DNA of 64,000 bases, from contig NZ_KB907926.1 of the NCBI RefSeq assembly GCF_000382285.1, forward strand, positions 186,001-250,000, written 5' to 3'. This document shows, piece after piece, positions 46,259 to 51,224 of the stretch. The DNA comes from Solimonas variicoloris DSM 15731 (GTDB lineage Bacteria > Pseudomonadota > Gammaproteobacteria > Nevskiales > Nevskiaceae). The first letter of the stretch is position 1. Every line of letters starts with the position of its first letter. A model generated the notes under the pieces. It saw only the letters and a list, made by a program, of their open reading frames with translations. It had not been told where the DNA came from and did not search any database. The translations under genes and the position numbers were made by a program.

Positions 46259-46510
46259 TTAGGCGGCGGCCTTCGGCGCCGTCTTGACCAGGAACGCGAC
46301 GCGATCCGACATCTGCGCGCCATTCTTGGTCCAGTGTTCGACGCGGGCGAGGTCGAGCACGAGCTTCTGCTCCTGACCCTTGGCGTTCGGGTTGTAGTGG
46401 CCGAGGCGCTCGATGAAGCGGCCGTCGCGGGCGCTGCTCTTCTCGGTGGCAACCACGTGGTAGAACGGGCGCTTCTTGGCGCCGGCGCGAGCCAGACGAA
46501 TCGTAACCAT
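46259..46510 (-). CDS. rpsP: 30S ribosomal protein S16
   Basis: The 83-residue protein begins [20 protein letters not shown] and contains [14 protein letters not shown], both diagnostic of S16. It is the first gene of the rpsP-rimM-trmD-rplS operon. Confidence 0.98.
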
Positions 46511-46631: not shown

Positions 46632-47900
46632 TCAACGCCGCGCCAGCCAGGCCAGCAGTTGCTCGCGCCGCGCGCCGCCGAGCGCCTCGAAACGCTGCCG
46701 CGCGCGGGCCGCCTCGCCGTCGTGCCAGAGTACCGCCTGTTCCAGCGAAAGTGCCCTGCCGTCATGCAGATACGTCGGCACGCCGGTGCGCGGCACCAGG
46801 CCGACGGCCCACAGCGGTGCGGTCCGCCAGCGGCTCGTGACCACACGCCCGGCGACGTCGCGGTCGGTCAGGCCCGGCCCGAGATCGTGCAGCAGCAAAT
46901 CGCTGTACGCGGCGATCGTCACGGAGCGGCCGTCGCCGAGACGTACGCTCGCCCGCGGCCGGTGGCACAGCGCGCAGCCGGCCGCTGCGAACAGCGCGGC
47001 GCCCGCTCGCTCTTCCTGATCCGAGCGGCGCGGCACGGCCGGCACCGCGAGTTTCTGCTGGAACGCCAGCACCGCCGCGAACAGGGCATCGTCGACTTCC
47101 GGAACGCCGCCGTCCGCCAGGCGGCAACGCGTCTGCGCCGGAGTGCAGTCGTCGGCCGGCAGCAGCCGCGTCGTCAGGCCCATCTCGCGCGAGAACGCGC
47201 GCGCCGTCTGCTCGGCGAGCGACACCGAGGCGCCCTGCCAGCCGAACCGTCCGGCCCGCTCGCCGCGGATGCCGTCGCGACGCGCTGCCGGATCGGCGGC
47301 CCAGCGCCGGCGCTGGGCATCGCTGATGCGCTCGAGCAGGCCAACGCCGTACAAGGCTGGCGCGATGCGCGGCCGCAGGATCGTGTCGGCCGCCAGCGCG
47401 CCGTCGCGCAAGGCCTCGACGCGATACGCCGGCACGCGCAGGGTCCAGAGCGCGCCGTCCGGATAGCGGCCGCGCCGCGCCCGGTAGTGCACTGACAGCG
47501 CGGCCTCGGCGTCGAGACCGTCGATCGCCGCCACGTTCAGTGTGTGGCCGTAGACCGGGTCCGGCCCGGCGTCGCGCTGCAGTTGCAGCACCAGCGAACC
47601 GGGCACCGGGCCGTCGCCTTCCGGACCGCGGCCGCGCGCGCCGTCGTTGTGGCAGCCGTCGCAGCTGCCGACGTTGAACAGCGGGCCGAGCCCGTCGATA
47701 CGCATCGCGCGCGGCGTGCCGGCGACGACCCACTGTGTGTTGAACACCCGCAGACCGAGTTCGTAGCGGGCGCCCTCGTCGCCCGACAGCGGCGCATACG
47801 CCGGCGGCTCGCGCGAATCGGCGAGCGGCTGGCGCCCGAAATCGGCCGCCGCCGCGCTGCCGCAGACCAGCGCGGCGACGAACGCCAGCGCGCGCCTCAC
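46632..47900 (-). CDS. Di-haem oxidoreductase-family c-type cytochrome (DHOR/DUF1111-like)
   Basis: The 422-residue periplasmic protein has a signal peptide (about 1-19) and two haem c sites: C80-DG-C83-H84 and C309-AL-C312-H313. The segments FNVGSCDGCHNDGARG and LHDLGPGLTD ... WRTAPLWAVG are characteristic of the di-haem oxidoreductase family (a MauG-like class). The GTG start overlaps the preceding gene by GTGA. The electron partner and substrate are unknown; related proteins are often linked to metal uptake. Confidence 0.88.
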   Translation of the reverse strand: MRRALAFVAALVCGSAAAADFGRQPLADSREPPAYAPLSGDEGARYELGLRVFNTQWVVAGTPRAMRIDGLGPLFNVGSCDGCHNDGARGRGPEGDGPVPGSLVLQLQRDAGPDPVYGHTLNVAAIDGLDAEAALSVHYRARRGRYPDGALWTLRVPAYRVEALRDGALAADTILRPRIAPALYGVGLLERISDAQRRRWAADPAARRDGIRGERAGRFGWQGASVSLAEQTARAFSREMGLTTRLLPADDCTPAQTRCRLADGGVPEVDDALFAAVLAFQQKLAVPAVPRRSDQEERAGAALFAAAGCALCHRPRASVRLGDGRSVTIAAYSDLLLHDLGPGLTDRDVAGRVVTSRWRTAPLWAVGLVPRTGVPTYLHDGRALSLEQAVLWHDGEAARARQRFEALGGARREQLLAWLARR

Positions 47901-48421
47901 GGCGCCGCGGTCACCGACAGGCGCACGGTCTCGCCGGCATGGCCGCTCAGCTGCAGCCAGACCTCGCCGGCCGGCAGCGCGTAGACGACGATCTTGCGCG
48001 GCGCGCTGCAGGCCGGATCGCCGCTGAAATCCAGCGACGGCAGCGACTGGCCCGCTGCGAGCACGTCGATCCAGAACGGCACGTCGAGCGCGACGCGATA
48101 ACGTCCGGCCTGCGCGATCCGCACGCGTGCCAGACCGGCCGAGGCGCCATCGGCGAGCGTCTTCTTGGCCGGCGGCGCGATCAGGCTCACCGCTTCCTGC
48201 GGCACCAGCTGCAGCGCGTAGAGCCGGCCGCTTTCGAGCCGCGGCGCGGCGTCGCGTGCGCGGCCCGCCGCCAGCGCCAGCGGCTCGCCGGCGAAGACGG
48301 CGCGGACATCGGCGACGTCCCACTTGATGCCCTCGCAGGGCGCCGCCGCCGGGGCGGCCGTGATCCAGGAAACCGCGAGCAGCGGCAGCAAAGCGCGAAG
48401 CAGCAGCGTGCGAAGAGCCAT
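47897..48421 (-). CDS. Secreted protein of unknown function between TonB receptor and di-haem cytochrome
   Basis: The 174-residue product has a clear signal peptide (about 1-27), three cysteines (in PCEGIKWD and DPACSAP, plus C-terminal beta strands VWLQLSGHAGETVRLSV) and an all-beta look. No family was recognised. It begins 5 bases after the receptor stop and overlaps the cytochrome gene by GTGA, so the three gene products probably work together in the periplasm. Confidence 0.75.
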   Translation of the reverse strand: MALRTLLLRALLPLLAVSWITAAPAAAPCEGIKWDVADVRAVFAGEPLALAAGRARDAAPRLESGRLYALQLVPQEAVSLIAPPAKKTLADGASAGLARVRIAQAGRYRVALDVPFWIDVLAAGQSLPSLDFSGDPACSAPRKIVVYALPAGEVWLQLSGHAGETVRLSVTAAP

Positions 48422-48426
48422 GGCGA

Positions 48427-50439
48427 TCAGAAGCGGTAGTTCAGGTTGCTGAAGAAATTGCGCCCGGCCTCGGGAAAGCCCTCGGTGTAGGCGTAATGGC
48501 GATCGAACAGATTGTTGGCGCCGGCCTCGACGCTGAGTCCGCGGCCGAGTGCGGCCGACAGCTTGAGGTTGGCGACGGTGTAGCTGGGGACACCGCGCCG
48601 GCCGTCCGTCGTGTTCAGGCGATCGGCGTTGTACTCGGCGCTGGCCACCACACTGAGCACGGACGTGGCGTCCCACTGCCCGTAGACGAACAGCTTGTGC
48701 CTGGGCACGTCGGTCAGGCGGATTTTGCGAATCTCCGGATCGTCGCTGACATTGCGCCGGTCGAGCCAGGTGTAATTGCCGCCGAGTTCGAGACTCGCGA
48801 GCGGACGGCCGCGCAGGCCGAGGTCGGCGCCCTGACTCGATACGTCGCCGACGTTCTGTTTCTGCGTGCAGCTCGAACCGCTGTCGGTGCAACGCGACGG
48901 ATCGATGGACACGGCCTGAATCAGGTCGCTGATATCGCTGTAGTAGAGCGCCGCATCAATCTGCACGCCGTGCCAGGCCTGCGCGATGCCGAGCTGGTAG
49001 TGCGTCGCGTATTCCGCCTTCAGATCGGGATTCGGCACTGACGTGCCGAAACTGTACGAATAGCGGTCCTTGATCGTCGGGAAGCGGCTCTTGCGCGCGA
49101 TCGTGAAGTAGGCGTTGCCGTCGTCCGCGGACTTGTAGAACAGCCCGAGCTGAGGATTGAACGACGAGGCCTTGCCGAGCTCGAAGTCGGAAATGCCGGC
49201 GCTGCCGTAATCTTCGGCGCGCCTGCCGTCGCGGCGGTCGTAGCTGGCGCCGGCGACGACGTCGATGCGCGCGCCGATGCGCTGCGTGTCCTCGACGCCG
49301 ATCGAGTAGGTCCGATCCTCGAAGTGCTGCACCGGATCGCTGTTGTCGTGTTCGCGATGGAAGTCGGCCTTGTAGTGCGCGGATGCCTTCAGCGTGTTGG
49401 CAGCGCCCAGCTGCGTGCCGGCTTCGAGGCTGCCGCCGTAGCTGTAGTCGTCGTACCAGCTCTTGAACGCATAACGCTTGGTCATCGTCGAGTACGTCGC
49501 GTCGTCGTAGCTGAACAGTGAATTCCGGAAGGTGTCGTAGTAGGCACGGACCTTGACGTAGGCATCACCGAACGCCGTCTTCGAGATGAAGTACAGGCTG
49601 TCCTTGTCCCAGCTCGGCCATTGCCAGTAGCGCACGCTGACGCCGGACGCGCTGCCGGCGTACGGCGGATTGCCCTTCTCGCCGCGCTGCACGACATAGT
49701 TCAGCGCGTACTCGTCGGTCGCGTTGGGCGTATACGCCAGCTTCAGGTTGAGCTTCTGGTCGGTGTTGTACGAGTTGCCGCGCACGCCGCCGTTCTCGGC
49801 AGCCGTCGGCGTGTAAGCGTCGGACAGCGAGAAATGCCGGCGATCCAGATACGAGCCGCCGAGCTGCGCGTACCACAGGCCCTGGTTGCTGCCGAGGTTG
49901 ACGCTGGCACGATAGCCCTCGTCGTTCATGTCGCGGTCGTAGTACAGGCCGCCGCCGACATTGCCTTCGAGCTTCGCGCCGGGGCGGCGGCTGATCAGAT
50001 TGACCGCGCCGCCGAGCGTGTTCGGACCGTACAGCACCGAGCTGAAGCCCTTGGCGACCTGGATCTCGGCGAGATCGAAGGTATTGAAGCGACCCATGTC
50101 GGCGTAGCCGTCGTACGAGACATAGACCGGAATGCCGTCGATGAACACCGGCACCTGGCGCAGGTCGAAGCCGCGCACGAAGAAGGCCTGCTCGTTGCGC
50201 GCGCCGACACCGCCGGTAACGACGCCCGGCATCAGGCTCAACGCCCGCCCGACCGTCTCGCGATTGAAGCGCTGCAGCTCGGCCTGATCGACCTCGCTGC
50301 CGCCCGCCTGCGGTGCGCCCTCGCCCGGCGCCGTGACCACGATCTCGCCGAGCGCGAACGGCGAAATTTCATCCTGCTGCGCTTGCGCCGCCGTCGACAG
50401 CGCGCACAGCGCCGCGCCGGCCATGACCATCCGTTTCAT
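48427..50439 (-). CDS. TonB-dependent outer-membrane receptor
   Basis: The 670-residue receptor has a signal peptide (about 1-20), a TonB box (EIVVTAPG, about 32-39), a plug domain (about 50-165, with FVRGFDLRQVPVFIDGIPV and GPNTLGGAVNLISRRP) and a 22-strand-type barrel ending ...FFSNLNYRF with a terminal Phe. The ligand is unknown. Its operon carries a di-haem cytochrome, so a metal such as iron or copper is plausible but unproved. A near-perfect palindrome overlaps its probable promoter. Confidence 0.92.
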   Translation of the reverse strand: MKRMVMAGAALCALSTAAQAQQDEISPFALGEIVVTAPGEGAPQAGGSEVDQAELQRFNRETVGRALSLMPGVVTGGVGARNEQAFFVRGFDLRQVPVFIDGIPVYVSYDGYADMGRFNTFDLAEIQVAKGFSSVLYGPNTLGGAVNLISRRPGAKLEGNVGGGLYYDRDMNDEGYRASVNLGSNQGLWYAQLGGSYLDRRHFSLSDAYTPTAAENGGVRGNSYNTDQKLNLKLAYTPNATDEYALNYVVQRGEKGNPPYAGSASGVSVRYWQWPSWDKDSLYFISKTAFGDAYVKVRAYYDTFRNSLFSYDDATYSTMTKRYAFKSWYDDYSYGGSLEAGTQLGAANTLKASAHYKADFHREHDNSDPVQHFEDRTYSIGVEDTQRIGARIDVVAGASYDRRDGRRAEDYGSAGISDFELGKASSFNPQLGLFYKSADDGNAYFTIARKSRFPTIKDRYSYSFGTSVPNPDLKAEYATHYQLGIAQAWHGVQIDAALYYSDISDLIQAVSIDPSRCTDSGSSCTQKQNVGDVSSQGADLGLRGRPLASLELGGNYTWLDRRNVSDDPEIRKIRLTDVPRHKLFVYGQWDATSVLSVVASAEYNADRLNTTDGRRGVPSYTVANLKLSAALGRGLSVEAGANNLFDRHYAYTEGFPEAGRNFFSNLNYRF

Positions 50440-50542
50440 GTCGTTGCTCCCAAGGTTTTCGGTTCCGCAAGGACGCCGAGCCCGGGACGAAAAACGCCCG
50501 TCGGCCTTGCGCGATTGCGCCGGCGCGTCGTTGGACCGGTCA

Positions 50543-50562
50543 TTATGTAGTCGACTATATAA
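50543..50562 (-). promoter_or_regulatory. Near-perfect 20-base palindrome in the TonB receptor promoter
   Basis: TTATGTAGTCGACTATATAA is an inverted repeat with one mismatched pair and a TAGTCGACTA core. On the minus strand it contains CATAAT, a good -10 element, about 105 bases before the receptor start. A repressor bound here would shut the operon. It does not fit the Fur box (GATAATGATAATCATTATC) well. Confidence 0.6.
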
Positions 50563-50705
50563 CGAAACGCGCAGGCCCGCGATGAGATGTTCGCCCGCAT
50601 GTCAGAGCACCCGAACCGAAGGCGCGGCAGCGCAATGCCCGGGCAGCGGCAAGCCGCGCCCGCCCGGCGCGCGCCGCGAAGCATGGGTTCAGGAGGGGCT
50701 GTCGC

Positions 50706-51224
50706 TTAACGCGACGCGCCGAGCAGCGCGAGCACGCGGCTTTCGATGTCGCCGGCGAAACTGTCGCCGAAGCCGTAGTAGATCTGGTCGATCTCGCCGC
50801 TTGGCGTGATGATGAAGGTTGCCGGCAGGCGCCACAGATCGAAGAAGCGCGTGGCGATGCCGATCGGATCGACGATCACCGGATAGGAAACCGGATGCAG
50901 CTTGATGAAGCGCTGCGCCTTGTCGACTTCCTGGTCGATGCTGACCGACAGCACTTCGAAGCGCTCGCCGTAGCCCTGCTTTCTCAGGCGGCCGTGAAGC
51001 GCATCGATCTGCGGCATCGATTCGATGCACGGACCGCACCACGAGGCCCAGAAATCGAGGACCACGACCTTGCCCTTCAGCGCGCTGAGCTTGGTGCCCT
51101 GCGGCCCCTGCAGGACCACGCCGGCGGCTTCCGGCGCCTGCTGGCCGACCTTGATCGCATGGGCCGGCGTGCTGGCCAGCATGGCCAGCAGCAGCAGCAG
51201 CGCCCCGCCGACGCCCCGGCGCAT
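50706..51224 (-). CDS. TlpA/ResA-like periplasmic thioredoxin-family protein
   Basis: The 172-residue protein has a signal peptide (about 1-23) and a redoxin domain with the active site W-C63-G-P-C66 in DFWASWCGPCIESMPQID, and the cis-Pro in LPATFIITPSG. Such proteins reduce disulfides in the periplasm, for example apocytochromes. It starts 4 bases after ffh and is probably co-transcribed with it. Confidence 0.9.
   Translation of the reverse strand: MRRGVGGALLLLLAMLASTPAHAIKVGQQAPEAAGVVLQGPQGTKLSALKGKVVVLDFWASWCGPCIESMPQIDALHGRLRKQGYGERFEVLSVSIDQEVDKAQRFIKLHPVSYPVIVDPIGIATRFFDLWRLPATFIITPSGEIDQIYYGFGDSFAGDIESRVLALLGASR

Follow-up and report, generated by a model that had tools for sequence, protein, structure and literature searches.

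A three-gene operon of Solimonas variicoloris DSM 15731 (order Nevskiales) lies on the minus strand of the window analysed here, a stretch of 64,000 nucleotides (contig NZ_KB907926.1, positions 186,001 to 250,000), and encodes a TonB-dependent outer-membrane receptor, a small secreted protein that we call P3, and a di-haem oxidoreductase of the DHOR family. Judging from its sequence, this is very probably a molybdenum-starvation operon for the TonB-dependent uptake of molybdenum (or tungsten), probably as a chelate, with a redox step in the periplasm. Regulation by ModE, the molybdate repressor, and the link to molybdenum are well supported by comparison with other genomes; the ligand and the chemistry of uptake are what we infer, and we are guessing at the chelate, at a redox step that releases the metal and at what P3 does. 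Repression by molybdenum and active import would follow from the known biology of ModE and of TonB receptors. We favour high-affinity uptake because the operon appears to be ModE-controlled, because P3 recurs near molybdenum or tungsten genes, and because distant relatives of the receptor are also preceded by ModE boxes.

The ModE box

The palindromic operator CGTTATATAGTCGACTACATAATG (coding strand) occupies 24 bases at 50541–50564 on the minus strand, 101 bases upstream of the receptor start codon. The initial annotation had recognised a palindrome here, which is real and larger than was written. The operator agrees with the pattern CGTTATATA-N6-TATATAACG at 16 of 18 positions (2 mismatches), the E. 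coli ModE consensus being given as ATCGNTATATA-N6-TATATANCGAT (PMC545781). Allowing up to 3 mismatches, the pattern matches once in the window, against 0.00 matches expected from 100 shuffles, and at two places only in the 4.12-Mb genome to which the window belongs, i.e., the receptor operon and a site 17 bases upstream of modA, which has 2 mismatches, as many as the operon box. The reversed pattern, used as a control, finds one place in this genome at 3 mismatches and none at 2. One ModE above the cut-off is encoded in the genome (TIGR00637, 109.8 bits vs. 98.5), between a moeA-like gene and modABC, in a cluster that reads moeA-like, modE / modC, modB, modA. ModA and ModB each exceed a cut-off, ModC is slightly under (280.7 vs. 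285.05), and a Mop profile matches at 151 bits (cut-off 55). By its fit to the pattern, the palindrome is a ModE box.

That the palindrome is not a Fur site, as the initial annotation held, agrees with the absence of any match in the window at up to 3 mismatches to a Fur consensus. The "good −10" that it placed in the palindrome is a likeness at the level of the hexamer only (TATAGT, CATAAT), because no −35/−10 pair passed our promoter scan. Since the regulator is ModE, the metal would be molybdenum or tungsten, neither of which is among those that it suggested (Fe, Cu, Zn, Mn and Ni).

The pattern was also checked beyond this genome. Among 85 genomes of the order, it occurs at up to 2 mismatches at 40 places in 30 genomes, the reversed pattern at one place. 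We sorted the 40 places by BLAST, Pfam and reading: 20 adjoin modA, modB or modE (one of them, in G042, adjoins a porin too); seven precede a receptor of the window type or P3, two of which are near-copies in G008, a genome with 9% contamination; four precede a second receptor type and one a third receptor; five adjoin porins, two of these, in G029, lying beside a ModE-like gene as well; and three, one at a contig end, fit no category. In a phylum sample of 398 genomes, at up to 1 mismatch, there are 19 places in 13 genomes vs. 4 for the reversed pattern. Of these, 16 were read, and nine lie beside modA, modB or modE, two beside MoaA-like genes and one beside a molybdopterin-oxidoreductase-like gene (the latter two labels assigned by eye); the neighbours of the remaining four were matched by none of our receptor queries.

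In four Nevskiales genomes, a ModE box is closely followed by the second type of TonB receptor, at L079 (G013), L082 (G018), L084 (G021) and L086 (G028); the L079 protein is 58% identical over 483 amino acids to the receptor beside ModE at L133, on a plasmid of Sphingomonas NY01. The third TonB receptor, identified by its plug domain, starts about 190 bases past a ModE-like site at L090 (G037). The porins beside ModE boxes belong to Porin_O_P at L081 (G017), L091 (G038) and L096 (G047), as well as, by BLAST, at L176 (G042), and to Porin_4 at L087 (G029). From the placement of these boxes, outer-membrane proteins seem to be a common ModE target in the order. At L162 (about 1500–1824) and L165 (1190–1525), in two genomes that belong to one family, a ModE box is followed by small proteins of similar sequence, a possible additional ModE target.

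Operon layout and gene products

The receptor gene (48427–50439) encodes 670 amino acids, with Plug (PF07715, 71 bits) and TonB_dep_Rec_b-barrel (PF00593, 141 bits) domains that both pass the Pfam cut-off. It is followed after a gap of 5 bases by the P3 gene (47897–48421, 174 amino acids), which in turn overlaps by 4 bases the DHOR gene (46632–47900, 422 amino acids, GTG start). This tight packing had been described before, and the minus-strand coordinates bear it out. The third product is assigned to DHOR by a PF06537 match of 134 bits (cut-off 22) and two CxxCH haem-binding motifs read from the sequence, CDGCH (47649–47663, residues 80–84) and CALCH (46962–46976, residues 309–313). The N-termini of all three products read by eye as export signals, in line with the earlier view that all are exported. 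Near-identical operons, with 90–98% protein identity, are present in a Solimonas flava record (Nevskiales) and in G040. The flanks of the operon are housekeeping genes by names read from sequence, namely a thioredoxin-like gene beside ffh (50706–51224) and the rpsP-rimM-trmD-rplS cluster (46259–46510).

Conservation in the Nevskiales

P3 relatives were found in 12 of the 85 genomes of the order, and DHOR lies directly downstream of P3 in 11 of them, the locus of the twelfth (G009) ending at a contig end. The linkage in other genomes on which the initial annotation had staked its proposal is thus present. The receptor is directly upstream of P3-DHOR in eight genomes: S. variicoloris, G040, G041, G020, G013, G028, G015 and G021. 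In G008, it is found on the opposite side of DHOR; G042 has receptor and P3-DHOR on separate contigs, each with its own ModE box; and in G046, no receptor was seen within 16 kb.

The initial annotation had also called for a co-occurring regulator, and ModE answers to it. In 10 of the 12 P3 genomes (all but G020 and G009), the contig includes the upstream DNA, and all ten loci have a ModE box, a modE or modE-like gene, or both, directly upstream. Boxes with 1–2 mismatches precede the orthologous operons in S. variicoloris, G040, G041, G042 and G008; in the last of these, that box precedes the receptor, and the box before P3 has 3 mismatches. A modE gene lies directly upstream in G041, G013, G028, G015 and G021, and G046 has a modE-like gene at this position. 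There, the gene order is nifA, modE-like, P3, DHOR, mop, nifB, with nifA, mop and nifB each exceeding the cut-off and nifH about 16 kb away.

P3 beyond the order

P3 has no Pfam match, no NCBIfam match up to E 1 (a search that included the MbnP model, TIGR04052; PMC3621798), and no sequence match among solved chains up to E 10. An AlphaFold2 model (mean predicted local distance difference test score, pLDDT, 86.6) predicts a beta-sandwich. In an alignment of 34 proteins, Trp117, Asp119 and Cys138 are invariant, Lys143 is present in 33, and Cys29 is kept in all 32 that reach this column.

In the phylum sample, a P3 profile matches at E ≤ 0.01 in 26 of the 398 genomes, including our own; 23 of these are outside the class, and the named ones among them are alphaproteobacteria. 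We fetched 20 of the 27 places outside the S. variicoloris genome, and a molybdenum or tungsten gene is near P3 in 10 of the 20: modABC at L139, L142, L147 and L152, Mop at L140, L149 and L151 as well as at L142 and L147, ModE at L135 and L154, and a TupA-like gene at L144. These neighbours were labelled mostly by BLAST; ModA of L139 and Mop of L147 exceed the cut-off, and ModE of L135 is just under it (94.2). At L135, which belongs to genome G625 of the same class, a ModE-domain gene is followed by a receptor (42% identity) and P3. At L144 (7779–10709), P3 directly adjoins a gene for a TupA-like tungstate-binding protein (246 bits, cut-off 400) and ATP-binding cassette (ABC) transporter genes.

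On Sphingomonas plasmids, P3 is followed by an MbnH-like CCP_MauG enzyme, and a receptor of the window type adjoins, 36% identical over its full length at L134 and a 154-residue piece at 44% at L133. The receptor relative next to P3 in Sphingomonas paeninsulae has 36% identity. Further along at L133 come a second receptor, a gene annotated as ModE (64.5 bits, below the cut-off) and a TOBE gene. The P3 proteins at L133 (8950–9243) and L134 (8731–9249) carry the public label "homogentisate 1,2-dioxygenase", which is not supported, as it disagrees with their small size and their context.

The di-haem enzyme

The cysteines, aspartate and histidine of the CDGCH motif, and both cysteines and the histidine of the CALCH motif, are invariant in the 11 P3-linked DHORs. 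In a tree with 20 other DHORs, which contains a few long rows, these 11 are split off by one branch with support 100/100. The window cytochrome has no match to the NCBIfam MbnH model (TIGR04039), the one match being a weak one to a CXXCH model at E 0.17. The enzymes beside P3 in Sphingomonas and Methylorubrum are MbnH-like, scoring 268–281 bits with TIGR04039 (cut-off 363), and in their C-terminal haem half the P3-linked DHORs can be aligned with these enzymes, a distant likeness (hhalign probability 93.7, E 1.9e-7, 114 columns).

Receptor relatives in distant bacteria

A search of 72,556 plasmid records found 23 with receptor relatives at E ≤ 1e-60, of which six were read. On the plasmid of P. 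aeruginosa 2017-45-169 (L183, 5885–9443), a ModE box with 2 mismatches lies just upstream of the receptor (39%), which is overlapped by a small gene annotated as a molybdopterin-dependent oxidoreductase and followed by moaA (above the cut-off) and narIJHG. In E. coli MY504 (L187, 1368–7842), a box with 3 mismatches precedes three ABC genes, a methyltransferase gene, ModD (504 bits, cut-off 179) and the receptor (35%); judged by its box, this operon is predicted to be molybdenum-responsive. In Methylorubrum extorquens CM4, a site with 4 mismatches precedes the receptor (38%), which is followed by an IS5 element, a P3 gene (E 1e-37) and the gene for an MbnH-like enzyme (268 bits). In Azospirillum, a DHOR (37%) lies directly before the receptor, and neither P3 nor a ModE box was found at this plasmid locus. 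No convincing box and no convincing molybdenum gene were found beside the relatives in Paracoccus (best site 5 mismatches) and Bartonella.

Proposed mechanism

Under ample supply, molybdate-bound ModE would sit on the operator and block the promoter, as ModE of A. vinelandii represses when molybdenum is abundant (PMC9542535). When molybdate is scarce, the operon would be expressed along with modABC. The receptor would then bring into the periplasm a scarce molybdenum (or tungsten) species, most likely bound by an organic chelator, for example as a catecholate complex; there, DHOR and P3 would free the metal or hand it on, and ModABC would move molybdate over the inner membrane.

Several observations weigh against this proposal. 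In G013, G028, G015 and G021, the sites upstream of the receptor have 7–9 mismatches, i.e., chance level, and with no box there the adjacent modE is the sole link to ModE. Three of these modE genes were identified by BLAST alone (50–52% identity), and those of G041 and G013 are slightly under the TIGR00637 cut-off (95.8 and 92.8 vs. 98.5). Ten of the 20 fetched phylum-sample loci have no molybdenum gene near P3, six of them representing one genus with one arrangement and one, L136, having a site with 3 mismatches. No DHOR was found at the G625 locus, and tblastn with two receptor queries found no receptor at 19 of the 20 P3 loci, so that the parts of the operon are separable. Some receptor relatives accompany P3 together with a different di-haem enzyme (Sphingomonas, Methylorubrum) or with none found (G625), and others lack P3 (Azospirillum, P. 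aeruginosa, E. coli). For three of the six plasmid relatives (Azospirillum, Paracoccus and Bartonella), no site comes within 4 mismatches of the pattern, and iron-type ABC transporter genes adjoin the relatives in E. coli, Paracoccus and Bartonella. A search for metallophore synthesis found none, dhbA being below the cut-off, and did not extend to other pathways. Furthermore, free molybdate would be expected to enter through porins, which leaves it less than evident why TonB should be required.

Alternative explanations

Two purposes are conceivable for the redox enzyme: it could oxidise a catechol-type chelate and so release molybdate, or it could mature P3. The initial annotation's coupling of uptake to a redox step still fits; its further suggestion that the enzyme acts on the ligand stays conjectural, given the relatives with another di-haem enzyme or none, or with no P3. 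We regard a release or transfer step by DHOR and P3 as possible, if on balance doubtful. That DHOR instead leaves the ligand alone and matures P3, oxidising a residue (Trp117 being the obvious candidate) to create a metal or chelate site, would leave the regulation and the molybdenum uptake unchanged, and appears rather unlikely. In copper handling, MbnH has been shown to oxidise a residue of MbnP. The grouping of receptor, small secreted protein and di-haem enzyme repeats the architecture of MbnT/MbnP/MbnH, for which the role of MbnP and MbnH was left open (PMC3621798), and P3-DHOR resembles the metal-repressed pair CorA/CorB, in which CorB is proposed to mature CorA (PMC3912023). The invariance of Trp117 and the alignment of the DHOR C-terminal half with the MbnH-like enzymes beside P3 point the same way, and the replacement of DHOR by such an enzyme favours the view that both do the same work on a common partner, P3. 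However, Trp117 is equally constant where P3 has no di-haem neighbour, so that it does not track the presence of the enzyme; by sequence, P3 has no match among NCBIfam models or solved chains, and the window enzyme is a DHOR rather than an MbnH; moreover, the Azospirillum DHOR adjoins a receptor with no P3 found.

The remaining alternatives concern the cargo or the purpose of the operon. An iron-bound siderophore or catechol as the cargo, with molybdate control arising since molybdate competes for the same chelator, would suit the best NCBIfam scores of the window receptor (haem and siderophore receptor models, under their cut-offs), its closest solved relatives (metallophore and colicin receptors, over the plug) and the iron-type ABC genes mentioned above. 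Such transporters can, however, carry molybdate, as MolBC of H. influenzae does; the window has no Fur-box match, P3 adjoins molybdenum or tungsten transporters elsewhere, and the P. aeruginosa relative adjoins moaA and nar genes, which together leave iron cargo improbable. ModE control of a redox enzyme, and P3-DHOR without an adjoining receptor in G042 and G046, could also describe a periplasmic haem oxidoreductase that stands in for a molybdoenzyme at low molybdenum, the receptor bringing its substrate. This we consider very improbable: P3 adjoins modABC, Mop and the TupA-like gene at loci with no DHOR found, which ties it to molybdenum or tungsten handling and not to one enzyme reaction. 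Least credible of all is the view that the operon belongs with the imelysin-DHOR loci of Pseudomonas, whose presumed function is iron uptake. The Pfam family is shared, and at the Pseudomonas locus L003 a DHOR gene is flanked by two imelysins and a DUF1513 gene, each above the cut-off; but no imelysin (PF09375) is found in the S. variicoloris genome at E ≤ 0.001, no Fur box matches in the window, and the P3-linked DHORs form a separate clade. IcmP of P. aeruginosa is itself an imelysin. This outer-membrane protein is reported to work with secreted ModA in molybdate transport (PMC8602904), so imelysin loci may themselves touch molybdenum.

Comparison with known systems

Receptor, secreted protein and di-haem enzyme sets for copper are already known, as is outer-membrane molybdate delivery via the type VI secretion system (T6SS), ModA and IcmP. 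The S. variicoloris operon shares with MbnT/MbnP/MbnH the grouping of a TonB receptor, a small partner and a di-haem enzyme, which in the Sphingomonas and Methylorubrum relatives is MbnH-like; however, that system handles copper, whereas here a DHOR takes the place of CCP_MauG/MbnH, a ModE box is present, and P3 does not match the MbnP model. CorA/CorB and MopE/SACCP of methanotrophs likewise combine a metal-repressed secreted protein with a co-transcribed di-haem enzyme, but for copper and with no TonB receptor described in the portion of the literature consulted (PMC3912023); as for P3 belonging with CorA/MopE, no solved chain matches up to E 10, in a search for which the CorA entry was not looked up individually.

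With the modABC-modE regulon, the operon shares operator and regulator, modA having the only other box in the genome at up to 3 mismatches; modABC crosses the inner membrane, whereas the operon would add an outer-membrane and a periplasmic stage. The T6SS-ModA-IcmP route of P. aeruginosa also delivers molybdate at the outer membrane, with secreted ModA and IcmP instead of a TonB receptor (PMC8602904, PMC11734730). The VnfA1-dependent TonB receptors of A. vinelandii respond to metal supply for nitrogenases, but are activated by VnfA1 and described as siderophore receptors, with no ModE box reported in the sections consulted (PMC9542535). The Pseudomonas imelysin-DHOR loci share the di-haem oxidoreductase, whereas the window operon has no imelysin, a DHOR of a separate clade, and a ModE box.

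Implications

Bacterial molybdate uptake has been described mostly at the inner membrane (ModABC, TupABC). In the literature searched, T6SS-ModA-IcmP was the one outer-membrane route found, and no report of a ModE-controlled TonB receptor was found within the limits of that search. In the broadest form of our proposal, plausible and a little short of an even chance, a TonB receptor family in Nevskiales, P. aeruginosa and E. coli would be dedicated to molybdenum or tungsten under ModE, P3 would be a new periplasmic family that handles these metals, and the di-haem enzyme would oxidise the chelate or mature P3. The whole would be a molybdenum counterpart of the copper set MbnT-MbnP-MbnH, in which Nevskiales use a DHOR, and Sphingomonas and Methylorubrum an MbnH-like enzyme.

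The P3 family, publicly "homogentisate 1,2-dioxygenase" or hypothetical, thereby gains a proposed role. A receptor relative sits in a ModE-boxed operon that is common in E. coli: by megablast, the MY504 operon stretch is in 2102 of 5426 complete E. coli genomes, in 2094 over at least 80% of its length. By combining a TonB receptor under ModE control with a periplasmic partner that is conserved, the operon would allow a direct genetic test of active outer-membrane uptake of molybdenum or tungsten. It also suggests that a metal-controlled small secreted protein paired with a di-haem enzyme may be a general design, not confined to copper.

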